A stretch of DNA of 34,835 nucleotides from Solirubrobacterales bacterium (GTDB taxonomy: Bacteria > Actinomycetota > Thermoleophilia > Solirubrobacterales > Solirubrobacteraceae): NCBI GenBank assembly GCA_025964115.1, contig JAOPZM010000037.1, positions 1 to 34,835 on the forward strand. Reading direction: 5' to 3'. This document shows positions 1,567 through 33,871 of the stretch, one piece after another; position 1 is the first letter of the stretch, and every line of letters starts with the position of its first letter. The notes under the pieces are model-generated. The model saw only the letters and a program-made list of their open reading frames with translations, searched no databases and was not told where the DNA came from. The position numbers and the translations under genes are program-made.

Positions 1567-1691
1567 ATGGGCCACTCCCGTTGGGCTCGTTCATCGCGCA
1601 CATGAGCGGCGCCGACTTCTTCGGCCTCGTCGTCTCCGTCCTCGTGATCGCCTATCTCTTCTACGCGCTGATTCGCGGGGACAAGCTTTGA
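1563..1691 (+). CDS. kdpF: KdpF-like small subunit of the potassium pump
   Basis: This 42-residue frame has one membrane helix (about residues 19-37) and ends in AYLFYALIRGDKL, which matches the usual KdpF C-terminus (one helix, then -YALxRPERF-like). KdpF stabilises the KdpFABC complex in the membrane. Canonical KdpF is about 29-30 residues; initiation at the internal ATG at 1602 would give exactly 29 residues. The longer start at 1563 is preferred because it overlaps the preceding stop (ATGA) and has a GAGGG about 13 bases upstream, whereas 1602 has no ribosome site. Its TGA overlaps the TTG start of kdpA. Confidence 0.8.
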   Translation: MNGPLPLGSFIAHMSGADFFGLVVSVLVIAYLFYALIRGDKL

Positions 1692-3460
1692 CCGTCACCG
1701 GCTGGCTCACGATCGCCCTATTCGCGGTCCTCCTGACCGCGCTCGCGATCCCCTTCGGCAGCTACCTCGCGAACGTCTACAGCGGCAAGCGTGTGTTCCT
1801 CACGCCGATCTTCGGAGGGCCCGAGCGCTTTCTCTACAAAGTCCTCCGCGTCGATCCGAACCGCGAGCAGGACTGGAAGTCCTACGCGAAGAGCCTGATC
1901 GTCTTCTCGCTCGCCGGCTGGCTGCTGCTGTATCTGATTCTGCGCACGCAGGACGCCTTCTTCGTGCCGCACGTCCTGAACCCGCTGGGTTTCGAGTCGG
2001 CGCCGTGGAACGTCACCTTCAACACGGCCTCGTCGTTCATGACGAACACCAACTGGCAGTACTACAGCGGCGAGACGACGATGAGCTACCTCAGCCAGAT
2101 GATCGGGCTGACGGTCCAGAACTGGTTGTCGGCCGGCGTCGGGATCGTCGTCGCGATCGCGCTGATCCGCGGGATCATCGGGCGCACCGGCAAGAGCCTC
2201 GGAAACTTCTGGCAGGACCTCGTTCGCACGATTCTCTACGTGCTCGCGCCGCTGTCGGTGCTCGCGGCGATCGTGCTCGTCTCCCAGGGCGTGATCGCGA
2301 ACTTCTCCCACTACCTGACGGTCCACACCGTCACGGGGCTCACCCAGACCATCGCGATGGGGCCGGTCGCCTCGCAGGAGGCGATCAAGATGGTGGGGAC
2401 GAACGGCGGCGGCTTCTTCAACACGAACTCGGCGCACCCGTTCGAGAACCCGACCGCCTTCACCAACTTCTTCGAGATGCTCCTCGTGCTGATCATCCCG
2501 GCAGCGCTCGTGTTCGCCTACGGGCGCATGACAGGCAACCGCCGTCAGGGCTACGCCATCTACGCGACGATGATCCTGATGTTCCTCGGCGCGGCAGCGG
2601 TCGCCTACATCGCCGAGGCGCACGGCTCGCCGGCACAGCACGCGGCCGGCCTGCACACGCACGTGATCGCAGGCTCATCCGGGGGGAACCTCGAAGGCAA
2701 GGAGCAGCGCTTCGGGATCGCGGGATCGGCGCTCTTCGACGTCGTCACGACGGTCACCTCGTGCGGTGCCGTCAACAGTGCGATCGAGTCATTCACGGGC
2801 ATCGGCGGAGCCGTCCCGTTCGCCAACCTGTCGGCCAGCGAGGTGATCTTCGGAGGCGTGGGCACGGGCCTCTACTCGATCCTCCTGTACGTCCTGCTGG
2901 CGGTGTTCATCGGCGGGTTGATGGTGGGCCGGACACCCGAGTGGCTGGGCAAGAAGCTCGAGGCGAGGGAGATAAAGCTCGCGGGCCTCGGCATTCTCAT
3001 CACCCCGCTTGCCGCGCTGCTCGCCACGGCGCTCGCGACCGCGAGCCATGCCGGACGCGAATCGATCTCCAAAGCAGCCACCGGGCCGCAGGGCTTCTCG
3101 GAGAGCTTCTACGCCTACCTCTCCCAGGCCAACAACAACGGCTCGGCCTTCGCGGGCTACACCGGCTTCATCCAGCCCAACGCAGGCAACGTCGGCTCGC
3201 ACGGCGTCACGTTCGCCGACCTGCTCGGGGGCTTCGACATGCTCCTCGCCCGCTACGTGCCGATCCTGTTCGCGCTTGCCGTGGCCGGCGCGCTGGCGGG
3301 CAAGCGGGTCACGCCCGCGGGCCTCGGAACGATGCGCACCGACAACGGGACGTTCGTGGTCCTGCTGATCGGCGTGATCGTCCTCGTGGGCGCGCTGACC
3401 TTCTTCCCCGCCCTGCTGCTCGGCCCGGTCGTCCAGGGGCTGACGAGCCATCTCTACTGA
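1688..3460 (+). CDS. kdpA: Potassium-transporting ATPase subunit A (K+ channel subunit)
   Basis: KdpA is the potassium-selective channel-like subunit of the high-affinity Kdp pump. The 590-residue protein is slightly longer than the usual ~560 and has about ten membrane helices. All four selectivity-filter loops are recognisable: TNTNW near residues 119-123, TNGGGFFNTN near 238-247, SCGAVNSAIESFTG from 358, and ANNNGSAFAG from 481. The start is a TTG that overlaps the kdpF stop. The resulting N-terminus, MTVTGWL, is a normal KdpA beginning, and no better ATG exists. kdpC follows one base after the stop. Nothing suggests damage. Confidence 0.96.
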   Translation: MTVTGWLTIALFAVLLTALAIPFGSYLANVYSGKRVFLTPIFGGPERFLYKVLRVDPNREQDWKSYAKSLIVFSLAGWLLLYLILRTQDAFFVPHVLNPLGFESAPWNVTFNTASSFMTNTNWQYYSGETTMSYLSQMIGLTVQNWLSAGVGIVVAIALIRGIIGRTGKSLGNFWQDLVRTILYVLAPLSVLAAIVLVSQGVIANFSHYLTVHTVTGLTQTIAMGPVASQEAIKMVGTNGGGFFNTNSAHPFENPTAFTNFFEMLLVLIIPAALVFAYGRMTGNRRQGYAIYATMILMFLGAAAVAYIAEAHGSPAQHAAGLHTHVIAGSSGGNLEGKEQRFGIAGSALFDVVTTVTSCGAVNSAIESFTGIGGAVPFANLSASEVIFGGVGTGLYSILLYVLLAVFIGGLMVGRTPEWLGKKLEAREIKLAGLGILITPLAALLATALATASHAGRESISKAATGPQGFSESFYAYLSQANNNGSAFAGYTGFIQPNAGNVGSHGVTFADLLGGFDMLLARYVPILFALAVAGALAGKRVTPAGLGTMRTDNGTFVVLLIGVIVLVGALTFFPALLLGPVVQGLTSHLY

Positions 3461-3461
3461 C

Positions 3462-4120
3462 ATGCGCCGCGACATCGTCACCTCCACCATCGCCGCCCTC
3501 GTGTTCACGGTCCTCCTGGGGCTCGTCTACCCGCTGGTGATCACCGGCGTGAGCCAGGTCGCCTTCCCAGGCAACGCCAACGGCCAGCAGATCCACGTGA
3601 ACGGCAAGCTCGTCGGCTCGAAGATCATCGGCCAGTCGTTCGCCGACCCAAAGGTCAAGAACGGCAAGGTCCTCGAAGAAAAGGGCGTCGTCGTCACCGA
3701 ACCCGACGAGCGCTACTTCCAGACCCGCCCGTCCGTGACCGAAGGTGGCGCCTACAACGCGGCCGCGAGCACCTTCTCGAACCTCGGCCCGAACAGCAGG
3801 GCGACCGAGGAAGCGATCGCCGAACACATCAAGGGCTACATCGAACTCGAGGGGCCCTACAACCCCGGCCTCGATGCGGCTCATGTTCCAGTCGACGCAG
3901 CCAACAGCTCCGGCTCCAACCTCGACCCTGAAATCTCACAGGCCAACGCGCGGATCCAGGCTCACCGTGTCGCGGCCGTGCGTCACCTGTCGCTCGCGGT
4001 CGTCGGCGCGCTCGTCTCCAAGTACACCGACGCGCGCGGCATCGGCTTCTCCGGTGAGCCCGGAGTGAACGTGCTCGAGCTCAACCTCGCGCTCGATCGC
4101 CTCACGGGTGGGGCGCGCTG

Positions 4121-4121
<1 letters not shown>
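3462..4121 (+). CDS. kdpC: Potassium-transporting ATPase subunit C
   Basis: KdpC is the single-pass accessory subunit that assists potassium handling in the Kdp complex. The 219-residue product has one N-terminal membrane helix (about residues 8-30) and a soluble extracytoplasmic domain. The domain contains the family signatures [27 protein letters not shown] and [15 protein letters not shown]. The start lies one base after the kdpA stop, without a clear ribosome site, which suggests coupling. The stop overlaps the kdpB start (TGATG). Its position between kdpA and kdpB, rather than after kdpB, is unusual compared with the textbook kdpFABC order. Confidence 0.95.
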
Positions 4122-6237
<2,116 letters not shown>

Positions 6238-6241
<4 letters not shown>

Positions 6242-7413
6242 GCGAGGCGATCACCGCGGCCGAGCTAGCGCCCCCCAAGTCGGTATCCGGTGGCACCCGC
6301 CGTGGTCGTCTGAAGGTCTTCCTCGGCATGGCCGCGGGCGTCGGAAAGACCTTCCGCATGCTGGTCGAGGGCCGCGTCGAGCTCGAGGCGGGACGCGATG
6401 TGGTCATCGGGCTGCTCGAGACCCACGGTCGCGCCGAGACGGCCCAGCTGGCCGACGGCCTGGCGATCCTGCCGCGCATGCGCATGAGCTACCGGCAGAC
6501 GGTGCTCGAGGAGATGGACCTTCGCGCGGTCCTGCTCCGGGCACCGGAGGCCTGCCTGATCGACGAGCTCGCGCACACCAACGCTCCGGGCAGCGAACAC
6601 GCCAAGCGCTATGAAGACGTCGAGGAGATCCTCTCCGCCGGGATCGACGTGCTGTCCACGCTCAACGTCCAGCACCTCGAGTCGCTCAACGACCACATCA
6701 CCGAGCTCAGCGGGATCCGCGTGCGGGAGACGATCCCCGATGCGATCCTCGGGCGCGCGGACGAAGTCGTGCTCATCGACCTCACTCCGGAGGCGCTGCT
6801 CGATCGTCTTCGCGAAGGCAAGATCTATCCCTCCGAGCGGATCGATGCCGCGCTCAACAACTTCTTCCGGATCGAGAACCTCGCCGCCCTGCGCGAGGTG
6901 GCGCTGCGCCAGGTGGCCGAGGAGGTCGGCGCCAAGCGCCTGACCTCCGAGCTCGTCGGCTCGCGCGAGGAGAGCCTCGCCGCGGACGCCCCGCAGGCCG
7001 TGGGCGAGCGCCTGCTCGCGCTCGTCGAGCCCTACCCGGGAGCGCAGCGCCTGGTGCGCCGCGCCTGGCGATCCGCCCAGCGCCTCGGCGGGGAGCTAGA
7101 TCTCCTCTGGGTGCGCAAGCCCGGCCAGCAGCTCACGGAGGACAACGAGCGCTCCCTCGCAGCGCTTCGACAGCTCGCCTCGGTGCTCGGCGCGAGGATG
7201 CTCGAGGAGGAATCCGACGACGTGGCGACGGCCGTCGCCGACGTCGCCGCACGACGCGGCACGACCTACATCCTGATCGGCCGCTCCCGTCCGGCGCGGG
7301 GCCTTGCCCGCCTGCGCGTGCCACTGCCGCAGCGACTGATGCAGCGGCTTCCGGGTGTCGACGTGCGGATAGTCGCCGACCGCTCCGGGCGAGCGAGCGT
7401 GGAGCCGCAATGA
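6238..7413 (+). CDS. kdpD: Stand-alone KdpD N-terminal sensor module (KdpD + USP domains, no kinase)
   Basis: The 391-residue protein matches only the N-terminal half of KdpD. It has the KdpD domain (about residues 22-230) with Walker [10 protein letters not shown] at 30-38 and the family signature [16 protein letters not shown], then a universal-stress-like domain (about 245-380). The membrane helices, HisKA and HATPase_c domains of full KdpD (~900 residues) are absent, and the gene ends cleanly. Short KdpD proteins of this type are known in cyanobacteria such as Anabaena. In other bacteria the USP domain senses potassium or c-di-AMP. It overlaps kdpB by 4 bp and the next gene by 4 bp, so it belongs to the operon. 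It may supply the input domain for the kinase encoded at the start of the window (inference). Confidence 0.92.
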
Positions 7414-7976
7414 CCGTGCTCGCGATCGTCATCGTCGCCGCGGGCATCCTGCTGGGGATAGCCGGGGGCTACTGGCTGCCACCCAACGGACGCCTTCCCA
7501 GGCGCGAGCGTCCGCGGCCGGTCCGCCGCATCCTGCTCCCGTTCACCGGGCAGGCGATCTCCCGCCGGTCCTTCGAGGCGGCCGTCCGGCTCGCCAAGGC
7601 GGAGAACGCGACCGTGATGCCCGCCTTCCTCGCGACCGTGCCGATGAACCTGCCTCTTCAGACGCCACTGCCCGTGCAGTGCGCCCGGGGGATGCCGGTG
7701 CTCGAGGCGATCGAGCAGCGTCTGATCTCACAGGGTGTATCGGTCGACTCCCGTGTGGGCCGCGGGCGCACCGCCCGCGACGCGCTTCGCAAGCTCCTCG
7801 AGCAGGAGCACTTCGACCGGATCATCGTCTCCGCCGACGAAGATCAGCATTCGGGGCTCGGCTACGAGGACCTGCGATGGCTGCTCGAGCGCGTCCCGGC
7901 CGAGATCCTGATCCTCCGGACCGCGCCCCAGGACACACGTCAGATCTCGAGCGACGCGGTCGGCGGCCATTTGTGA
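7410..7976 (+). CDS. Membrane-anchored universal-stress-domain protein
   Basis: The 188-residue product begins with one strong hydrophobic helix (about residues 3-22) followed by a basic stretch (RLPRRERPRPVRR), giving an N-terminal anchor with the rest in the cytoplasm. Residues about 38-172 look like a USP fold: ILLPFTGQAISRRSFEAAVRLA at the start, and a RIIVSADED strand near the end. The glycine-rich nucleotide motif found in ATP-binding USP proteins is not visible, so it may be a non-ATP-binding type. It overlaps the KdpD module by 4 bp and is the last gene of the kdp run, suggesting a role in signalling or assembly with the pump. Specific function is unknown. Confidence 0.75.
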   Translation: MTVLAIVIVAAGILLGIAGGYWLPPNGRLPRRERPRPVRRILLPFTGQAISRRSFEAAVRLAKAENATVMPAFLATVPMNLPLQTPLPVQCARGMPVLEAIEQRLISQGVSVDSRVGRGRTARDALRKLLEQEHFDRIIVSADEDQHSGLGYEDLRWLLERVPAEILILRTAPQDTRQISSDAVGGHL

Positions 7977-7983
7977 GCCACCC

Positions 7984-9267
7984 TCACGCGCGGCTGGCGG
8001 GACCGATCGCCTCCTCGCCCATGGCAGGCTCCCCAGAGCCGTCCCGCGGCTGACGCCGCGCGATCCACCTGACGCCCGGAGTATCGGTAAGCCCGTGCGC
8101 GAGGATCGACGCGAACACGGCGAGCGCGGCGATGTTGAAGATTCGCTGTGCGCCTGAGACGTGGCGCTCGAGTATCAGCAGCGAGAAGGCCATCGTGGCG
8201 ACGCCCTTGGGCCCGAACCACGCCATGAAGGCCTTCGTCGCTCCTCCCACCCGCGTGCCGGCGAGGGCGACCCAGACCGCGACGGGTCGGGCGAGTAGGA
8301 AGGTGCCGAACACGACGCCGACCGCCGCCCAGCCGTCGCCGAAGAGGCCGTGGAGGGTCAGCAGCGAGCCGAACACGGTGAAGATCGCGAGCTTGACGAC
8401 CTCCACGACCTCCTCGCTGCGCTCGGCGAAGTATCGGCGCAGGTCAGGGCGGCGAACGCCGATCACGATGGCCGCGACGAAAACGGCGATGAAGCCGTTT
8501 CCGTGTGGGGGCAGGACGGCCACGCCATAGGTGGCGAACGCCAGGCCCAGTCCGTAGAGCGCCTTCTGGTGAGCCGGGATCGGCCGGCTGAGGGGCTCCC
8601 GCTTGGGGTCGGGCATCAGCAGCGAGCCGACGAACCCGCAGACCAGCCCGAACCCCAGCCCGAGCCCGACGTCCTGCAGCAGGTAGTGCCACCAGACGAA
8701 GTGCGAGCTGCCCGGGGCGAGCGCGGCGGCGAACGCGAGCACAGCCGGGAGGGCCAGGCCGTCGTTGAGGCCCGACTCGAGATTGAGCGAATGGCGCACC
8801 ACTCGCGGGACTCGCGGATCGGTGACGACGCTCGAGGAGAGCACCGGGTCGGTCGGCGAGAGCAGCGCGCCGAGCAGGAACGACTCGGTCCAGCCGAGGC
8901 CGACGAGCGCATGCGCGAGCGCGGCGACGATGGCAGCGGTGATCGGCATTGCGATCACCAGCTTGCGCAAGGGCAGATGCCACTCGCGCTGAAGGAGCTC
9001 GGCGTCGACCTCCAGGCCATCCCGGAAGAGGATCACGATGAGCGCGACCGTGGCCAGGTCTCGCACGAACCCGGAGCTCGCGTTGAACTGCAGGACGCCT
9101 GTGGCACCTTCGCCGAGGATGAAGCCCGCGAGCACGAAGAGCGCCGCGAGCGAGAGCATGCTGCGGCGCGCGAGACCCGAGAGCAGGGCGCCGAGCACGA
9201 GCAAGCCGCCGAGCACGGCAGCCGCCGTCTCAAAGGAGGTCACTTCGGTAGCGTCCCACAAGGTCAT
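7984..9267 (-). CDS. CPA1-family cation/proton antiporter (NhaP-type)
   Basis: The 427-residue polytopic protein (about 12-13 membrane helices) carries the CPA1 signatures SPTDPVLSSSV near residues 137-147 and NLESGLNDG near 162-170. The N168-D169 pair is the ND motif typical of electroneutral NhaP-like exchangers. It would exchange Na+ or K+ for H+ across the membrane; the ion cannot be decided from sequence. There is no C-terminal RCK/TrkA domain; it ends in a short polar tail. The start codon is separated from the start of the second KdpD-like gene by only 2 bp on the opposite strand, and its 3' end faces the kdp operon 7 bp away. No good ribosome site precedes the chosen ATG. The setting suggests a potassium-balance role (inference). 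Confidence 0.9.
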   Translation of the reverse strand: MTLWDATEVTSFETAAAVLGGLLVLGALLSGLARRSMLSLAALFVLAGFILGEGATGVLQFNASSGFVRDLATVALIVILFRDGLEVDAELLQREWHLPLRKLVIAMPITAAIVAALAHALVGLGWTESFLLGALLSPTDPVLSSSVVTDPRVPRVVRHSLNLESGLNDGLALPAVLAFAAALAPGSSHFVWWHYLLQDVGLGLGFGLVCGFVGSLLMPDPKREPLSRPIPAHQKALYGLGLAFATYGVAVLPPHGNGFIAVFVAAIVIGVRRPDLRRYFAERSEEVVEVVKLAIFTVFGSLLTLHGLFGDGWAAVGVVFGTFLLARPVAVWVALAGTRVGGATKAFMAWFGPKGVATMAFSLLILERHVSGAQRIFNIAALAVFASILAHGLTDTPGVRWIARRQPRDGSGEPAMGEEAIGPASRA

Positions 9268-9269
9268 CC

Positions 9270-10448
9270 ATGGCCGACGAACGGGGACACCTCAAGGTCT
9301 TCATCGGTATGGCCCCCGGCGTGGGCAAGACCTACCGCATGCTGCAGGAGGGCCGCGCGGAAGCCGAGCGCGTGCGGGACGTCGTCATCGGCTACCTCGA
9401 GCCGCACGGCCGCGCCGAGACGCTCGCGCAGGCAGGCAGCCTCGAGGTCGTGCCGCGCCGGACCCTCCTCTACCGCGGCACGCCCCTGCAGGAGATGGAC
9501 CTGCCGGCCGTGCTGGCGCGCAGACCCGAGCTGTGCCTGATCGACGAGCTCGCCCACACCAATGCGCCGGGCGCCGAGCACGAGAAGCGCTACGAGGACG
9601 TTCGCGACGTGCTCGACGCCGGGATCAACATCTACTCGACCGTCAACGTTCAGCATCTGGAGAGCCTCAAAGACCAGGTCGGCCAGCTCACCGGTGCGCG
9701 TGTGCGCGAGACGATCCCGGACGCGGTGCTCTCGTCCGCGGACGAGCTGGTCCTCGTCGACCTGACACCGCAGGCGCTGATCGCTCGGCTACGCGCGGGC
9801 AAGGTCTACGCACCCGAGCGAGTGCTTGCGGCGCTCAACAACTTCTTCAAGATCGAGAATCTCGAGGCTCTGCGCGAGACGGCTCTGCGCCTCCTCGCCG
9901 AGGATGTCGAGGTCAAGCGCCTGGAGCGCGAGCCCACCCCGATCGTGCGCCGCGATGAGCATGGGAGGGCCGCGCCACCGGAGCCCGGCCCGGCGCCGAT
10001 CGCCGAGCGCCTGCTCGTGCTCGCCACGCTGGCCCCCCGCTCCGAGCACGTGATCCGGCGTGCGTGGCGCTCGGCGCAGCGCCTGGACGCCGAGCTTGAC
10101 GTGCTCCTGGTGCGCCCGCCGGGCCGCCCGCCCACTGCCGAGGACCGCACGCGGCTGGAGGAGCTCCGGCGTCTGGTCGCGATGCTCGGAGCGCGCCTGC
10201 ATGTCGAGGAGGCAGAGGATGTCGCCGAGGCCGCGATCGCGACCGCTCGCTCGCTGCGGAGCACCTACGTGCTGATGGGCACGCCGGCCGCTCGCCGTGG
10301 CATCGGGCGCCTGGCCGACGGGCGCTCGTTGCTCGCGCGTCTGCTCGAGGGGCTGCCCGGCGTCGATGTTCGCATCATCGCCGACCCGGCCCTGCGCGGA
10401 TCGGCCGCGACTCTCGAGGAGCGCTCCTCGGAGAGCGATCGGACGTAG
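9270..10448 (+). CDS. Second stand-alone KdpD N-terminal sensor module
   Basis: The 392-residue protein is a paralogue of the module at 6238-7413. The two align without gaps from the RGxLKVF start through the AALNNFF region. Walker A is GMAPGVGKT at residues 13-21, followed by [16 protein letters not shown], then a USP-like domain from about residue 245. No membrane helices or kinase domains are present. A Shine-Dalgarno AAGG (9260-9263) lies 6 bp before the ATG, inside the first codons of the divergent antiporter gene. Differences from copy 1 concentrate in the linker after residue 215 and in the USP domain, which suggests a different ligand or partner. It stands outside the kdp operon and next to an antiporter, so it may regulate cation export; this is inference. 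Confidence 0.9.
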   Translation: MADERGHLKVFIGMAPGVGKTYRMLQEGRAEAERVRDVVIGYLEPHGRAETLAQAGSLEVVPRRTLLYRGTPLQEMDLPAVLARRPELCLIDELAHTNAPGAEHEKRYEDVRDVLDAGINIYSTVNVQHLESLKDQVGQLTGARVRETIPDAVLSSADELVLVDLTPQALIARLRAGKVYAPERVLAALNNFFKIENLEALRETALRLLAEDVEVKRLEREPTPIVRRDEHGRAAPPEPGPAPIAERLLVLATLAPRSEHVIRRAWRSAQRLDAELDVLLVRPPGRPPTAEDRTRLEELRRLVAMLGARLHVEEAEDVAEAAIATARSLRSTYVLMGTPAARRGIGRLADGRSLLARLLEGLPGVDVRIIADPALRGSAATLEERSSESDRT

Positions 10449-27671: not shown

Positions 27672-27857
27672 ATGAGCGCCACCACCAAGACCCTGCAACG
27701 CTGGATCTGCGAGTCCTGCGGCTATATCTACGACCCCGATGACGGCGACCCGGACGGCGGCATTCCGACGGGTACCGCGTTCGAGGACATCCCCGACACC
27801 TGGTTCTGCCCGGTGTGCGGAGCGCGCAAGCGCGATTTCGTCCCGTACGAAGACTGA
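27672..27857 (+). CDS. Rubredoxin
   Basis: The 61-residue protein has the two rubredoxin cysteine knuckles, CESCGY at residues 13-18 and CPVCGA near 46-51, which hold a single iron. [20 protein letters not shown] between them is the usual loop. It is a small cytoplasmic electron carrier, typically serving alkane or fatty-acid hydroxylases or oxygen/peroxide defence. No hydroxylase or rubredoxin reductase is visible nearby. The start at 27672 gives a standard rubredoxin length. No strong ribosome site is present, and the -10-like TAATCT suggests a leaderless message. bioA begins 26 bp after the stop. Confidence 0.95.
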
Positions 27858-27883
27858 GCGCCCGTGCGCGCCTCCGCGCTCGC

Positions 27884-29179
27884 TTGAATCCCGATCCCGT
27901 CTGGGAGGCGCTGCTCGCGCTCGACCGTGGGCGGGTCTGGCATCCCTATGGGGCGCTGCCGGCGCCGGTTCCGCCGCTGCCCGTCGTCTCCGCCGAGGGC
28001 GTACGGCTGAGGCTGGCCGACGGGCGCGAGCTGATCGACGGCATGGCCTCGTGGTGGTGCGCCATCCACGGCTACCGCCATCCGGCGCTCGACCGCGCGG
28101 TGACGGAGCAGCTGCAGAGCATGGCCCATGTGATGTTCGGCGGGCTGACCCACGAGCCGGGCATCCGCCTCGCCGAGCGGCTCACGGAGCTCGCTCCGCG
28201 TCGCCTCGAGAAGGTGTTCTTCGCCGACTCGGGATCGGTGTCGGTCGAGGTCGCGATCAAGATGTGCCTGCAGTTCCAGCGGGCCGCGGGTAGGCGAGAT
28301 CGCCGGCGGCTGCTGACCGTTCGGGGCGGTTACCACGGCGACACGTTCGGGGCGATGGCGGTGTGCGATCCCGTCGGCGGGATGCACAGCCTGTTCACCG
28401 GGGTGCTCCCTGAGCACGTCTTCGCCGAGCGGCCTCCCGACGGCTTCGAGGCACCGCTGGACGAGGGCTGGGCCGCGCGGCTGAGCGCGCTGGTCGCCGA
28501 GCACGCGCACGAACTGGCCGCGGTGATCGTCGAGCCGGTCGTGCAGGGCGCGGGAGGGATGCGCTTTCACTCTCCCGAGTGCGTCGCCCTGCTCAGGGCG
28601 CTGTGCGACGAGCACGGCCTGCTCCTGGTGCTTGACGAGATCGCCACCGGCTTCGGACGCACCGGCCAGATGTTCGCCTGCGAGCACGCCGGCGTCACAC
28701 CCGACGTCATGTGCGTGGGCAAGGCGCTGACCGGCGGGTACATGACGCTTGCCGCGACGCTCTGCACCGCGGAGGTGGCCGAGACGATCTCGCGCGGCGA
28801 GGGCGGGGGCCTGATGCACGGCCCGACGTTCATGGCCAACCCGCTCGCGTGCTCGGTCGCGCTCGCCTCGCTCGATCTGCTCGACGGCCTCGGGTGGCGC
28901 GTCCGCGTGGCCGAGATCGAGGCGGGACTGCGTACGGGCCTCGAGCCGGCGCGGGCGCTCGCCGGCGTTTCCGACGTCCGCGTGCTAGGCGCGATCGGCG
29001 TCGTGCAGCTGGAGCGCGAGGTCGACATGGCCGCTGCCACGACGATCGCCGTCGAGCACGGGGTGTGGCTTCGCCCCTTCCGCGACCTGGTCTACACGAT
29101 GCCGCCCTATGTCATCGACGCAGGCGATCTCGCGCGCGTGACCGAGGCCATCGTCGATGTCGCGCGCATGTCAGGCTGA
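27884..29179 (+). CDS. bioA: Adenosylmethionine-8-amino-7-oxononanoate aminotransferase
   Basis: BioA makes 7,8-diaminononanoate in biotin synthesis, using S-adenosylmethionine as amino donor. The protein (about 431 residues from the TTG start) has the BioA hallmarks RVWHPYG near the start, [18 protein letters not shown], and [13 protein letters not shown]. The [16 protein letters not shown] segment and the PLP lysine K280 in [12 protein letters not shown] are also present; WWCAIHGY and [12 protein letters not shown] distinguish it from other class III aminotransferases. The start is uncertain. TTG at 27884 follows the rubredoxin stop and puts the first conserved residues at the right distance, but has no ribosome site. 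A GTG at 27815, inside rubredoxin, would add 23 basic residues. It converges on the minus-strand bioD/F/B genes. Confidence 0.93.
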
Positions 29180-29196
29180 ATCGCCTCATCACCCAG

Positions 29197-29382
29197 ATGG
29201 CCCCGGGCTCACTGCAGGGCCTGCAGCTCGTCGTCGGCGACATCGAGGCGGCCCGAGATGAGCTGCTCGAGCGTGGTGTGGAGGTCGGCGACGTCCAGAT
29301 CTTCCCCTGGGGCTCCTTCGTCTTCTTCAGCGACCCCGATGGCAACGGCTGGGCCGTCCAGCAGGTGCCGGCTCGCGACTAA
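29197..29382 (+). pseudogene. C-terminal fragment of a glyoxalase-fold (VOC) protein
   Basis: The frame encodes 61 residues beginning MAPGSLQGLQLVVGDIEAAR and ending FFSDPDGNGWAVQQVPARD. This is the second half of a VOC/glyoxalase-like domain: the second repeat with its metal-ligand region FSDPDGNGW. Full members are about 120-130 residues and begin with another beta-alpha-beta-beta-beta repeat, which is missing here; bioA occupies the space upstream. There is no clear ribosome site. It is probably a decayed gene left by rearrangement, though a short translated single-repeat protein cannot be excluded. Its stop overlaps the stop of the convergent bioD by 4 bp. Confidence 0.6.
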
Positions 29383-30074
29383 CCGACCGCCGTCTCCAGC
29401 CAGCGGTGCCAGGGCAGCGCCCGGCCGGCACGCGCGAGCGCGCTCGGGTCAGGGCCGGCGACTGCCGGGAGCCCGGCGACCTCGACCCCGCCCATGCGCG
29501 CGATCGCCTCGCGGTTCGATGCCTCGAGGTCCGACGGCTCCGACGGCTCCGACGGCCATGGCGTCATCACAACCGCAAGTACCTGCAGGCCGGCGGCACG
29601 CGCAGCGAGCAGCGTCAGCAGCGAGTGGTTGATCGTCCCGAGGCCGGGTCTGGCGGCGATCAGCACGGGCAGCCCGAGCGCGACGGCGAGATCGCACACG
29701 GTGTAGTCGCGCGCAAGGGGCGAGAGCAGCCCGCCGGCACCCTCCACGATCACAAGGCCCTGCTCGCCCGCGGCGCGGGCGGCCCGCTCGAGCGCCTCGG
29801 GCTCGACGTGCTCGCCCGCCAGCTCGGCCGCGAGCTGCGGAGACACGGCCGGCCCGTAGCGCAGCGGCGCGACCTGCTCGGGGCTCAGGCCGCTCACCGT
29901 GGCGAGCAGCTCATGGTCCGGCGGCCATCGTCCCCGCGGCTCGTCGAGCCCCGTCACGGCGGGCTTGTGCGCCCTCACCGGCTCGCCGGCCTCGGCCACC
30001 GCGGCGATCAGCGCCACCGCAACGACGGTCTTGCCGGCGCCCGTATCCGTGCCGGTTACGAACAGTCCTCGCAT
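29379..30074 (-). CDS. bioD: Dethiobiotin synthase
   Basis: BioD closes the ureido ring of dethiobiotin from diaminononanoate, CO2 and ATP. The 231-residue protein has the P-loop GTDTGAGKT at residues 8-16, the KPAVTG substrate motif from K37, and EGAGGLLSPL for metal/ATP binding, followed by VLIAARPGLGTINHSLLT. The ATG has no evident ribosome site and lies 42 bp after the bioF stop. A Ser-Glu-Pro repeat (PSEPSEPSD) encoded by three exact copies of a 9-bp unit sits in the surface loop after VVMTPW. It is the last gene of the minus-strand bio operon and converges with the VOC fragment. Confidence 0.94.
   Translation of the reverse strand: MRGLFVTGTDTGAGKTVVAVALIAAVAEAGEPVRAHKPAVTGLDEPRGRWPPDHELLATVSGLSPEQVAPLRYGPAVSPQLAAELAGEHVEPEALERAARAAGEQGLVIVEGAGGLLSPLARDYTVCDLAVALGLPVLIAARPGLGTINHSLLTLLAARAAGLQVLAVVMTPWPSEPSEPSDLEASNREAIARMGGVEVAGLPAVAGPDPSALARAGRALPWHRWLETAVG
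29530..29556. repeat. Three tandem copies of a 9-bp unit inside bioD
   Basis: TCCGACGGC occurs three times in a row. On the coding strand it gives the in-frame peptide repeat Pro-Ser-Glu in BioD. The unit keeps the frame, so copy-number changes would be tolerated. Confidence 0.8.
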
Positions 30075-30116
30075 GATCGCCCGGAGTGGCGGCTGGCCTG
30101 AGCGGAGGGCGGCCGT

Positions 30117-31544
30117 CTAGGCCGCGCGGGCCGCGGCGTGGTCGCGCTCGAAGTCGAACGGCGCCTCGGCTCCCTCGGGCCGCAGCGAGCCGCCCGCAGG
30201 GGGCTGCTCCTCCCGAGCGCCGCCTTCGAGCTCTCCATCGAACGGAGCGCCCGCCGAAACCCGCTCGGCTGCTGCCATGACGCCGCGCGCCTCTGACATC
30301 GAAGGCTCCGCAGGCATCGGGGCGGTCGGCGACTGCACAGACTCGACGATTGGAGGACCCATGTCAGCCGGCTCCAACCCGAGTGCCCGTGCGGCCTCCC
30401 CGAAGACGCGCGCCGCGGAGCGCAGCTCGGCGGGGGTGTGCGACGCCATCGCTGTCAGGCGCAGCCGCGACGTGCCCGCCGGAACCGTGGGGGGGCGAAT
30501 GCCCTGCGCGAACACGCCTCCTTCGAGTGCCTTCTGGCAGAGGCTCATCGCCTCGCGCTCCTCGCCGACAACCAACGGGACGATCTGCATCTCGAGCTCG
30601 GCCACGGGAAAGCCCTCCTCGGCAAGCGCTTGACGCAGCACGCGGGAGTTGGAGCGCAGGCGCTCCACTCGATGGGGACGTTCCTGTAGGAGCTCGAGCG
30701 CGGCAAGTGCTCCCGCGACGGCCGGCGGTCCGGGCGCCGTCGAGAAGATCAGCGAGCGGGCCGTGTTGATCAGGTAGCGGATCATCTCCGCGCTGCCACA
30801 GGCATACGCGCCGTAGGAGCCGAGCGACTTGCCGAGCGTGCCGACGATCACGTCGACCTCACCCTCCAGGCCCGCCTCGGCGAGCGCTCCGCGGCCGTCG
30901 GGGCCGAGGCACCCGATCGCATGCGCCTCGTCAACGACGACCTGCGCCCCGGCCGCGCCCGCGAGTTCGACGATCTCCTCCAGCGGAGCGACATCGCCGT
31001 CCATCGAGAACACCGAGTCGGTGACGACCAGCTGGCGACCCTGCCCGTCGCGGCGCCCGCGGTGGTAGAGGCACCAATGCAGGTGCTCGACGTCACGGTG
31101 ACGGTAGACGACGACCTCGGCGCGAGACAGGCGGCAGCCGTCGACGATCGAGGCGTGGTTGAGCTCGTCGGAGAAGACCGTGTCGCCGCGTCCTGCGAGC
31201 GCGCCGATCACGCCGATGTTCGCCAGGTAGCCCGAGCCGAACAGCAGGCAGGCCTCGCTGCGCTGAAATGCCGCCAGCCGCTCCTCGAGCCGGCGATGGA
31301 TCGTCATCGTCCCCGACACCAGCCTGGAGGCCCCCGCGCCGACACCCCAGCGCATCGCCGCGTCCGCCGCCGCCTCCCGCACGCGTGGATGGTCGGCGAG
31401 GCCCAGGTAGTTGTTCGAGCACATCAGCATCACCGGCTTGCCCTCGAGCAGCACCGTCGGGCCCTGCGGTCCGCTGAGCAGGCGCAGCCGGCGCCCGAGA
31501 CCGAGTCGCTCCAGCTCTGCCAGGCGCGCTTCGATCTCGCTCAC
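30117..31544 (-). CDS. bioF: 8-amino-7-oxononanoate synthase with a C-terminal extension
   Basis: BioF condenses pimeloyl thioester with alanine. The 475-residue protein shows NNYLGLADHPRV, GASRLVSGTMTIHRRLE, H130 in DELNHASIVDG, D205 and H208 in VVDEAHAIG, and PLP lysine K239 in GTLGKSLGSYG, all at normal spacing. The catalytic domain ends near residue 390. The last ~85 residues are an unusual Pro/Glu/Ala-rich tail that repeats the motif APFD (GAPFDGELEGG and EAPFDFERDHA). The GTG start has a GGGGGA ribosome site 5 bp away. It lies 12 bp after bioB and 42 bp before bioD, so it is an operon member. A Kbl-type ligase is less likely given the bio context. Confidence 0.93.
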   Translation of the reverse strand: MSEIEARLAELERLGLGRRLRLLSGPQGPTVLLEGKPVMLMCSNNYLGLADHPRVREAAADAAMRWGVGAGASRLVSGTMTIHRRLEERLAAFQRSEACLLFGSGYLANIGVIGALAGRGDTVFSDELNHASIVDGCRLSRAEVVVYRHRDVEHLHWCLYHRGRRDGQGRQLVVTDSVFSMDGDVAPLEEIVELAGAAGAQVVVDEAHAIGCLGPDGRGALAEAGLEGEVDVIVGTLGKSLGSYGAYACGSAEMIRYLINTARSLIFSTAPGPPAVAGALAALELLQERPHRVERLRSNSRVLRQALAEEGFPVAELEMQIVPLVVGEEREAMSLCQKALEGGVFAQGIRPPTVPAGTSRLRLTAMASHTPAELRSAARVFGEAARALGLEPADMGPPIVESVQSPTAPMPAEPSMSEARGVMAAAERVSAGAPFDGELEGGAREEQPPAGGSLRPEGAEAPFDFERDHAAARAA

Positions 31545-31556
31545 GTGGTCCCCCTG

Positions 31557-32729
31557 CTACCCGACCGGGGTTGGGCGGGTGGTCTTGTTGACGGCGCCGT
31601 CGGGGCGTGGCGGCACCGAGCTCTTGGCCCGGTAGCGCAGCTGCGTCGAGGGGTCCCACAACCGTACGTTCAGATCGACGCCCTCCGACGGCGGGGGCCC
31701 CGTGAGGTGCTCCTGGACCACATCGGGCGTCTCACCCTCGAGCCAGCCGGAGCGATTGTCAGGCCGGGGGTTCTCGGCATTGTCCGGCTGGCGGGCAACG
31801 TTCAGCCCGAGCTCTTCGAACATGGCCCTGTCCGCCTCGGGCTCGTTGCCGAGCGTGGTCAGGAAGTTCCCCATCATCACGCCGTTGATGCCGGCCTTCA
31901 CCGCGAGCTGCTGGAGCTCGCCGAGGTTCTCCACGCGTCCGCCGCAGAGCCGGAAGAGCGCGCCGGGGAGGATCAGGCGGAAGATCGCGATCCACTTGAC
32001 CGCCTCCCACGGATCCATGTATTCGCGGTCGCCGAACTTGGTTCCCGGGCGCGGGTTGAGCATGTTGATCGGCACGCTCGTCGGGTCGATGGCGGCCAGC
32101 TCGAAGGCCATCTCGACTCGCTGCTCCCGCGTCTCCCCGAGGTTGAGTATTCCCCCGACGCAAGTCTCGAGCCCGGACTCGCGCACCGCCTGGATGGTGC
32201 GCAGCCGCCCCTGATAGCGGACGGTGCTGGTGACCTCGTCGTAGTAGCTCTCGGCGGTCTCGACGTTGTGGTGCACTCGCTGGATCCCGGCCTCCCTGAG
32301 CGCGGCGGCTCGCTCGGCCGACATGTGGCCGATCGACGCGCAGCGCTTCAGGTTGGTCTGCTCGGAGACCAGCCGCACGCCTTCGAGGTACTTCTCGAAG
32401 TCGCGCTTGGACAGACCCTGTCCCTGGGTGACCATGCAGAACCGGTGCGCGCCCGCGGCCTCGGCGGCTCGTGCATGCTCGAGGATCTGATCCGGCTCCA
32501 TCATCGCGTGCATCGGCGTCTCGGCGTCGGCGAAGCGCGACTGGGCGCAGAAGCCGCAGTCCTCGGCACAGCCGCCGGACTTGGCGTTCACCAGCGAGCA
32601 CATGTCGGTCGAGTCGGCGAACCGCTCGACCCGTGCTCGCCACGCACGCTGAATGAGAGCTTCGATCTGGGCGTGGTCCTCGATCTCGCCCAGCTCGAGC
32701 GCCTCCTCGCGTGTGATCAGCGGCTCCAT
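31557..32729 (-). CDS. bioB: Biotin synthase
   Basis: BioB is the radical-SAM enzyme that inserts sulphur into dethiobiotin. The 390-residue protein has the [4Fe-4S] motif CAEDCGFC (C54, C58, C61) and the [2Fe-2S] ligands C98, C130, C190 and R260, in the expected order. Conserved HHNVETAESYYDEV and NMLNPRPGT are present. The core ends near residue 311, and an extra C-terminal region of about 79 residues follows, containing SEGVDLNVRLWDPSTQLRYR. The ATG at 32729 gives numbering close to E. coli BioB; a GTG three codons upstream (32738) is an alternative. Neither has a clear ribosome site. It is first of the bioB-bioF-bioD series and lies 55 bp after the crotonase gene. Confidence 0.95.
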   Translation of the reverse strand: MEPLITREEALELGEIEDHAQIEALIQRAWRARVERFADSTDMCSLVNAKSGGCAEDCGFCAQSRFADAETPMHAMMEPDQILEHARAAEAAGAHRFCMVTQGQGLSKRDFEKYLEGVRLVSEQTNLKRCASIGHMSAERAAALREAGIQRVHHNVETAESYYDEVTSTVRYQGRLRTIQAVRESGLETCVGGILNLGETREQRVEMAFELAAIDPTSVPINMLNPRPGTKFGDREYMDPWEAVKWIAIFRLILPGALFRLCGGRVENLGELQQLAVKAGINGVMMGNFLTTLGNEPEADRAMFEELGLNVARQPDNAENPRPDNRSGWLEGETPDVVQEHLTGPPPSEGVDLNVRLWDPSTQLRYRAKSSVPPRPDGAVNKTTRPTPVG

Positions 32730-32784
32730 GTCCGGCACGTTAGGCGGCGGGCCGGACGGCTGGATGCGGCGCGATGGACGGTCG

Positions 32785-33612
32785 CTAACGTCCCCGCCAC
32801 CTGGGCGGGCGTTTCTCGGCGAAGGCGCGCATGCCCTCGCGCATGTCCTCCGAGGCGAATGAATCCCGACGCAGCTTGATTAGCTCCTCCTCGACCTTTT
32901 CCCGGAGTGTCCCCTCCGCCCGCAGCAGCTCCGCGATCACGCGCTTGTTCCCGGCCTGCGAGAGCGGAGCGTTCCCGGCGAGCTCGGCGGCCAGCTCGAG
33001 CGTTAGCCCCTCGAGCTCCGTGGCGCTCGCGACGCGGTTGACCAGGCCCCACGAGAGGGCCGTCTGTGCATCCACATAGCGCCCGAGCAGGAACAGCTCG
33101 CGGGTGCGCGATGCGCCGATCGCATCGAGGAAGCGCCGGAGACCGGTGTGGGAGTAGACGAGCCCAAGCTTCGCCGGGGGCATGCCGAGCTTGATCTGAT
33201 CCTGGGCGATGCGCAGGTCGCAGGCAAGCGCGAGCTCGAGCCCTCCGCCGATCGTATGGCCAGGAAGCGTGGCGAGCGTGGGATAGGGAAACGCCTCGAG
33301 CGCGTCGATCGCTTCGGTGAAGGGATGTGCGACAAGCTGCTCGGCACGCTCCTCGAACTCCGCTTCGGGAATCTCGCCGATGTCGTAGCCCGCGGAGAAC
33401 ATCCCGTGGGCTCCGGTGACGACCAGGCAACGCGTCTTGGACTGCGCGGAGGACAGCTCGTCGAGCGTGGCGGTGATCGCGTCGAGGATCGGGTGGTCGA
33501 GCGCGTTGCGCTTGGCCGGGTTCGAGATCGTCAGCCGGACGACGCTCGGGGCGGGCTCGTCGACAAGCAGCTTGCCGTCGGCTAGCTCACGGGTTGCAGC
33601 GCTGGAGGACAC
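32785..33612 (-). CDS. Crotonase-family enzyme, methylmalonyl-CoA decarboxylase-like
   Basis: The 275-residue protein has the crotonase fold: NPAKRNALD near residue 31, the CoA/oxyanion segment FSAGYDIGEIP (72-82), and GHTIGGGLELALACDLRI (118-135). In true enoyl-CoA hydratases two glutamates catalyse hydration. Here the first is replaced by P146 (GMPPAKLGLVYS) and the second is kept as E172. The pattern KLGLVY with Y153, and the C-terminal SEDMREGMRAFAEKRPP, resemble E. coli methylmalonyl-CoA decarboxylase (YgfG), whose active site has a tyrosine at this position. So decarboxylation of a malonyl-type CoA thioester is more likely than hydration. The start is GTG without a ribosome site. It sits between a biotin carrier protein and bioB on the same strand. 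Confidence 0.8.
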   Translation of the reverse strand: MSSSAATRELADGKLLVDEPAPSVVRLTISNPAKRNALDHPILDAITATLDELSSAQSKTRCLVVTGAHGMFSAGYDIGEIPEAEFEERAEQLVAHPFTEAIDALEAFPYPTLATLPGHTIGGGLELALACDLRIAQDQIKLGMPPAKLGLVYSHTGLRRFLDAIGASRTRELFLLGRYVDAQTALSWGLVNRVASATELEGLTLELAAELAGNAPLSQAGNKRVIAELLRAEGTLREKVEEELIKLRRDSFASEDMREGMRAFAEKRPPRWRGR

Positions 33613-33658
33613 GCGCGGACAGGCTAGCCGAGCGCCGCCCGGCGCGCCCGCGGCCGGC

Positions 33659-33871
33659 TTACTCCAGCACGACGAGCGGGTCGCCCTCGCTGACCGCCTG
33701 GCCCTCGGTGCAGACGATCTCCGTGACCGTGCCCCCGTCCTCGGCCTCGACCGGCATCTCCATCTTCATCGACTCGAGGATCGCCACCGTGTCGCCCTCC
33801 TCGATGGCATCGCCCACCGCGCACTCGATTTTCCATACCGTGCCCGTGATATGGGCCTCCACCACAGCCAT
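33659..33871 (-). CDS. Stand-alone biotinylated carrier mini-protein (TB7.3-like)
   Basis: The 70-residue protein is a single biotinyl domain with the attachment sequence ESMKMEM; K36 is the biotinylated lysine. It closely resembles the ~71-residue mycobacterial biotinylated protein TB7.3 (LESMKMEIPV followed by AGTVSKV). It is too short to be the C-terminus of a broken carboxylase. The ATG at 33871 is fixed by a very good ribosome site (GGAGG, 5-bp spacing); a longer in-frame start upstream is rejected. It would carry carboxybiotin for an acyl-CoA carboxylase, though no carboxylase subunits are in view. It is the first gene of the minus-strand run leading into the biotin synthesis genes. Confidence 0.92.
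   Translation of the reverse strand: MAVVEAHITGTVWKIECAVGDAIEEGDTVAILESMKMEMPVEAEDGGTVTEIVCTEGQAVSEGDPLVVLE

Follow-up and report, generated by a model that had tools for sequence, protein, structure and literature searches.

Candidate partners of a 70-residue biotin carrier encoded beside a crotonase and the biotin-synthesis genes in Solirubrobacterales

In a 34,835-nucleotide stretch of DNA from a soil-type Solirubrobacterales bacterium (hereafter the window; contig C88 in a draft genome of 3.0 Mb, 84.6% complete), a gene for a small stand-alone biotin carboxyl carrier protein (BCCP) precedes a gene for a crotonase-family protein and the biotin-synthesis genes bioB, bioF, and bioD (Table 1). 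All five genes lie on a single strand, separated by gaps of 46, 46, 12, and 42 nt; coordinates and family searches thus agree with the first-pass annotation, which had described five same-strand genes with short gaps at this place. No promoter- or terminator-like site was detected between positions 29100 and 34200, where shuffled sequences average 0.1 and 0.9, and this result has little weight since actinobacterial promoters are poorly covered. The present study suggests that the BCCP rather probably carries biotin for an acyl-CoA carboxylase module that is uncharacterised and whose carboxyltransferase would be a protein that we call CT2.

Table 1. Genes of the biotin carrier row, its flanks, and the CT2 neighborhood (positions in the window unless contig C237 is named)
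Feature	Position	Strand	Basis
BCCP, stand-alone biotin carboxyl carrier protein, 70 aa, motif ESMKMEMP	33659..33871	-	Pfam Biotin_lipoyl 2.9e-19
Crotonase-family protein, 275 aa	32785..33612	-	ECH_1 2.7e-45
bioB, biotin synthase	31557..32738	-	TIGR00433 351 bits, cut-off 225
bioF, 8-amino-7-oxononanoate synthase	30117..31544	-	TIGR00858 449 bits, cut-off 426; residues 18-380 of 475
bioD, dethiobiotin synthase	29379..30074	-	TIGR00347 121 bits, cut-off 83
bioA, convergent to bioD, start codon uncertain	27815..29179	+	TIGR00508 570 bits, cut-off 405
Glycerol kinase 5' end, gene apparently running on into contig C237	34674..34835	+	Reading frame across contig ends
Crotonase-2	C237:8067-8843		Gene map of contig C237
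CT2, PccB/MmdA-type carboxyltransferase	C237:8948-10405		PF01039 5.7e-168
BKACE, beta-keto acid cleavage enzyme	C237:10433-11314		Gene map of contig C237

We searched 199 genomes of the class, 53 of them in the window's order, with the BCCP, crotonase, and bioB proteins, and counted orthologues at E ≤ 1e-26, E ≤ 1e-70, and E ≤ 1e-170, respectively. BCCP orthologues were present in 47 of the 53 order genomes and crotonase orthologues in 44; both occurred in 38, and no genome had neither. The two genes are directly adjacent and on the same strand in 35 of these 38 genomes, and coordinates inspected by hand place them on one strand, ~3 kb or less apart, in the remaining three (G029, G103, and G118). 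In the rest of the class, crotonase matches reached at most 43% identity and BCCP matches at most 46%. We also considered named loci, the best 80 of 224 confirmed, 75 of which have at least 450 nt upstream and count as testable. BCCP lies directly upstream of the crotonase gene in 62 of the 75 and within 3 kb in another 7; it was not found in 6, four Patulibacter loci and one of Paraconexibacter antarcticus among them. Neither BCCP nor CT2 was found in a Patulibacter; the cultured relative Svornostia abyssi has the pair. The named related contigs belong to metagenome-assembled genomes of Solirubrobacterales and Solirubrobacteraceae and to Patulibacter, Svornostia, Paraconexibacter, and Thermoleophilaceae, with a few labelled otherwise. 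In both samples, the BCCP-crotonase linkage supposed by the first-pass annotation is therefore conserved.

A candidate partner for the carrier is encoded on contig C237, which apparently continues the window: the glycerol kinase gene is split between the two contigs, its reading frame runs on, and the contig ends share 6 bases. On the joined contigs, CT2 lies ~10 kb (about ten genes) from BCCP, surrounded by genes for a second crotonase (crotonase-2), two acyl-CoA dehydrogenases, an SDR, and a beta-keto acid cleavage enzyme (BKACE). A search with this copy gave CT2 orthologues in 35 of the 53 order genomes; apart from the query itself, the 34 orthologues are 72 to 88% identical to it, the next class of matches being at 50% or less. 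Furthermore, G145 was counted as CT2-positive by position, because a fragment of a carboxyltransferase lies beside crotonase-2 at the edge of a contig. CT2 and BCCP share one contig in 23 of the 35 genomes, 6 to 48 kb apart (by hand). The best scores of CT2 are to PccB and 12S, and its relatives include MmdA. Like propionyl-CoA/acyl-CoA carboxylases, it spans the Carboxyl_trans domain end to end; unlike in those enzymes, the carrier proposed here is a protein of its own (70 aa), and BKACE and two crotonases are linked. We considered and rejected the methylcrotonyl-CoA carboxylase/leucine (Liu) cluster, as the score of CT2 against PccB (473 bits) far exceeds its best one against methylcrotonyl-CoA carboxylase beta (291 bits).

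The presence of CT2 follows that of the BCCP-crotonase pair. CT2 occurs in 35 of the 38 order genomes with the pair and in 1 of the 15 without it (Fisher p 3.9e-9, relatedness ignored); read the other way, 36 genomes were counted as having CT2 and 35 of them possess the pair, as do 3 of the 17 lacking CT2. These statistics include G145, and dropping its fragment would leave CT2 in 34 of the 38 genomes with the pair. On a tree built from a single protein, CT1, for 52 genomes (G127, in which no CT1 was found, was left out; 15 of 49 branches are starred), a loss-only model gives seven losses of CT2, and every one of the clades concerned has at least one genome missing BCCP or crotonase. CT2 and the pair agree at 48 of the 52 tips, compared with a mean of 32.7 (p 0.0001) under a simple random-loss null in which losses were placed by branch length and clades of more than 10 tips were excluded. 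BKACE, found in 40 of the 53 order genomes (in two as fragments), matches the distribution of CT2 at 48 of 52 tips (p 0.0001) and that of the pair at 46 (p 0.0012). As a control on the same tree, bioB agrees with CT2 at 31 of 52 tips (p 0.63) and with the pair at 35 (p 0.33). Crotonase-2 was tried as a further marker of co-loss and proved uninformative, being present in 50 of the 53 genomes. Besides, crotonase-2 and BKACE are direct neighbors with no CT2 between them in G029 (C1:480249-481956, locus L296) and G182 (C51:21420-23068, locus L297), as if CT2 alone had been lost there.

Outside the class, the proposed partners are found close to one another. In a phylum sample of 396 genomes, BCCP matches at E ≤ 1e-14 were obtained in 35, of which 13 belong to the order and the other 22 come from outside the class. 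Short loci from 17 of these 22 genomes show BKACE beside BCCP in 11 and a crotonase beside it in 13. Wider regions around the BCCP matches, covering 20 of the 22 genomes, contain a CT2-like gene (59 to 63% identity) in 13 and BKACE in 13. CT2, BKACE, and BCCP occur together in 11 of the 20 (families f12, f21, f52, and f56), all on a single strand except in G199, where CT2 is divergent, and a crotonase adjoins BCCP in 12. A biotin carboxylase (BC) match is present in four of the regions, with CT2, BKACE, and BCCP in G364 and G354 and without CT2 or BKACE in L414 and L416. The gene order in G364 is BC, crotonase-2, CT2, BKACE, BCCP, crotonase, the BC being a 440-aa open reading frame with no biotin motif discernible by eye. 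Since G364 and other outside regions hold the parts together, the module appears to be split in the window's order, with BCCP and crotonase by the bio genes and CT2 and BKACE farther away. In region L411 (G394), a carboxyltransferase gene with 44% identity to CT1 (7530-9154) stands directly upstream of the stand-alone BCCP match, a possible carboxyltransferase-carrier pair.

It is because CT2 is lost with the pair, and because CT2, BKACE, and BCCP stand in joint regions outside the class, that we favor a role of BCCP as the carrier of a carboxylase module. The first-pass annotation had hinted at a carboxylase accessory role with a partner still to be found, and co-loss and gene order in other families now converge on CT2 as a candidate. 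In such a module, the biotin on BCCP would be charged with CO2 by a BC; in the window's order this would probably be a BC-BCCP fusion that works in trans, and in some other families the BC encoded in the row itself. CT2 would then transfer the carboxyl group from the carrier onto an acyl-CoA, and the resulting product would be taken through a catabolic route by the crotonases and BKACE. The crotonase of the window may use a carboxylated acyl-CoA as its substrate but not hydrate it, perhaps decarboxylating it instead, and the bio genes would be neighbors supplying the cofactor. While gene content, gene order, co-loss, and residues are observed here, we infer from them complex formation, the service of a BC in trans, the substrate, and each catalytic step.

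In 20 order genomes, we found 1 to 4 BC matches and 1 to 7 carboxyltransferase matches each, fragments included. Of the 33 BC matches, 30 were read. In 24 of them, the frame also includes a biotin motif; the motif is missing from the other 6 (G000:C241, G011:C74, G071:C4, G139, G160, and G081), two of these six frames reaching the edge of the stretch. The window's own genome has BC matches on C84 (fused with BCCP), C241, and C157. In the maps of order loci, which show only genes common to at least two loci, no dedicated BC appeared next to BCCP-crotonase or CT2. The own contig C241 has, side by side, a BC that lacks the biotin motif, a small match to BCCP, and a weak one to carboxyltransferase; no such BC was found in the two congeners searched, and these genes possibly represent contamination of the draft genome.

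Among the NCBIfam models, the BCCP narrowly exceeds the cut-off of PRK05889 (75.3 bits versus 75), a family of which Mycobacterium tuberculosis TB7.3 is presumably a member; it scores higher against PRK08225 (86.1 bits) but stays below that cut-off of 95. The biotin attachment motif ESMKM with its target lysine is kept in all 46 aligned BCCPs of the order. TB7.3 (Rv3221c), the best-known of such carriers, is named as a small stand-alone putative BCCP in a passage of one report (PMC3048393), and in this it resembles the window's protein. The nearest relative of solved structure is 1z6h, Biotin/Lipoyl Attachment Protein (BLAP). Like the window's BCCP, BLAP of Bacillus subtilis (YngHB) is a small stand-alone carrier adjoining carboxylase genes. 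According to passages of PMC4016012, BLAP is biotinylated by BirA, and its neighbors are annotated as propionyl-CoA carboxylase, perhaps methylcrotonyl-CoA carboxylase; the role proposed there for the BLAP neighbors is of the same kind as that proposed here for BCCP. In contrast to the BLAP locus, the window's module has BKACE linked and a PccB-type CT2, with no dedicated BC identified in the window's order. No description of the module was found in open-licence papers as covered by their titles, the starts of their abstracts, and some passages (including PMC3199775), a coverage that does not imply absence in print.

The best NCBIfam model for the window's crotonase is the enoyl-CoA hydratase PRK06127 (200 bits, below the cut-off of 291), followed by the methylmalonyl-CoA decarboxylase PRK11423 (180 bits, below the cut-off of 257). 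The earlier label of a malonyl-CoA-type decarboxylase-like enzyme thus holds in part: a decarboxylase is the second-best model, but it falls short of its cut-off and a hydratase scores higher. Residues were counted after aligning 43 distinct crotonases of the order to E. coli ScpB/YgfG; we preferred these sequences to the 80 named loci, where search patterns bias the counts at residues 90-98 and 144-152. We take Glu144 and Glu164 to be the catalytic glutamates of rat enoyl-CoA hydratase, and Tyr140 and His66 to have catalytic roles in YgfG. All 43 crotonases keep the equivalents of YgfG Tyr140 (Y153) and of YgfG Glu113/rat Glu144 (E126), and 42 have H155; in all 43, Pro146 replaces the second hydratase glutamate (Glu164), leaving the glutamate pair incomplete, and Tyr76 occupies the position of YgfG His66. 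The proline disfavors a simple enoyl-CoA hydratase. A Met-x-Pro stretch also aligns with YgfG/ScpB. Since the second hydratase glutamate is gone and the Tyr140 equivalent is kept, decarboxylase-like chemistry is possible on the basis of these residues, although the window's crotonase, unlike YgfG/ScpB, has a tyrosine for His66 and scores below the PRK11423 family cut-off. The genome's own crotonase-2 keeps only the equivalent of Glu164. As a pointer to the nearest relative of the crotonase, fold comparison was uninformative, with general enoyl-CoA hydratases in the first Foldseek ranks (model pLDDT 80, below 50 at residues 149-152).

Several observations weigh against the carboxylase module. 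BCCP occurs without crotonase in 9 of the 53 order genomes and crotonase without BCCP in 6, and the presence of the two is not positively associated (Fisher p 0.57); neither, therefore, strictly needs the other. The pair is found without CT2 in G029, G087, and G178, CT2 without the pair in G163, and BKACE without CT2 in G005, G029, G182, and G190. A stricter sign test on independent pairs across supported branches had only four pairs, with a mean of 2.5 in the same direction and 0 in the opposite one (p 0.25). Draft genomes can miss genes, and the G145 fragment was assigned to CT2 by position only. A BC-BCCP fusion lies near the crotonase gene in G005 (L110, 9519-11399) and G029 (L111), both without CT2, so the partner may differ in these two genomes; in L111, a carboxyltransferase-like neighbor is also present by the fusion. 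The placement of G145 and these fusions slightly reduce our confidence in the module. In 10 of the 20 genomes searched for BC, the single BC match carries its own biotin motif, and hence a small carrier is not obviously needed there. Neither CT2 nor BKACE occurs in L410, L411, L414, L415, and L416 among the 20 outside regions. Furthermore, the BCCP-adjacent crotonases outside the order are 27 to 36% identical to that of the window and may not be its orthologues; all 14 of 14 aligned have glutamine for E126 and no tyrosine at 153, so that the gene may not play one shared role. No methylmalonyl-CoA decarboxylase appeared among the top 50 Foldseek matches of the crotonase model.

A different account is metabolite repair, at which the first-pass annotation had hinted. 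The crotonase would then be an ECHDC1/YgfG-like decarboxylase clearing acyl-CoAs wrongly carboxylated by CT2 or by a housekeeping carboxylase, and BCCP would belong to the error-prone carboxylase. We regard this as a possible though rather unlikely account. The conserved tyrosine, the proline in place of Glu164, and the decarboxylase model in second rank speak for it, as do the tracking of CT2 by crotonase (Fisher p 0.0002, relatedness ignored) and the analogy with ECHDC1, for which such a role in mammalian cells is described (PMC6717113); the tyrosine in place of His66, the missed family cut-off, the retention of crotonase in 9 of the 17 order genomes without CT2, and the absence of the tyrosine from the BCCP-adjacent crotonases outside the order speak against it. 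Less likely still is an ATP-free transcarboxylase or decarboxylase, in which CT2 and BCCP would shift a carboxyl group between acyl-CoAs, or release CO2, without a BC, like the 12S/1.3S parts of transcarboxylase. It would fit the kinship of CT2 with 12S and MmdA and the biotin motif in the BC of the 10 single-BC genomes, yet the gene rows of G364 and G354, which place BC with CT2, BKACE, and BCCP, point to an ordinary carboxylase. A shuttle of this kind that includes the crotonase, which with its incomplete hydratase acid pair would remove or trap the carboxyl group, seems slightly more doubtful again; if true, biotin-dependent units of a new kind, linked to the chemistry of BKACE, would exist in the window's order as well as in at least four families that do not belong to the class.

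The remaining explanations rest on proximity. Slow rearrangement in the order might have kept unrelated genes side by side, and the glycerol kinase, glycosyltransferase, acyltransferase, and Nudix flanks (some named by eye) are indeed also conserved around the pair. But families outside the class have partners of the same kinds in other groupings, within ~8 kb, and the co-loss of CT2 exceeds the null whereas that of the nearer bioB does not, so chance neighborhood is improbable. An accessory function in biotin synthesis, with the crotonase making a pimelate precursor and BCCP storing or sensing biotin, is in our view very improbable. It would account for the position of bioB, orthologues of which are present in 36 of the 53 order genomes: in 30 of the 36, bioB shares a contig with BCCP or crotonase at a distance of up to 10 kb, and in 7 of these it follows crotonase within 300 nt (both by hand), while in 52 testable named loci it follows crotonase within 6 kb in 32 and within 300 nt in 15. 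However, bioB is not associated with BCCP, crotonase, or the pair, either by Fisher test (p 0.37, 0.44, and 0.2) or on the tree (p 0.40, 0.41, and 0.33). A bioB match at E ≤ 1e-30 was not found in 11 of the 53 order genomes, and in five of these (G035, G053, G093, G127, and G188) BCCP and crotonase are still adjacent. The functional tie to biotin synthesis that the first-pass annotation had read into the row is thus not upheld, bioB content being independent of BCCP, crotonase, and CT2.

Other features of the window are recorded here in their own right. The bioF product extends ~95 residues past residue 380, where its TIGR00858 match ends, and that of bioB ~80 residues beyond the end of its family-model match. 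Two short plus-strand frames flank bioA: one on its 3' side (29183-29382), similar by eye to a VOC/glyoxalase C terminus, overlaps the end of bioD and is probably a remnant; the other, just 5' of bioA (27675-27857), is rubredoxin-like by eye, with a CxxC...CxxC pattern. Positions 1688-10448 form a kdp-type potassium-transport region in which, by eye, an antiporter-like gene stands between two KdpD-like N-terminal sensor genes.

For a small biotin carrier of unclear use, our study thus names a candidate partner, CT2, and a pathway neighborhood comprising BKACE and two crotonases. If the proposed module is true, the order of the window, along with at least four families that belong to the same phylum but not to the class, would have an uncharacterised acyl-CoA carboxylase route.

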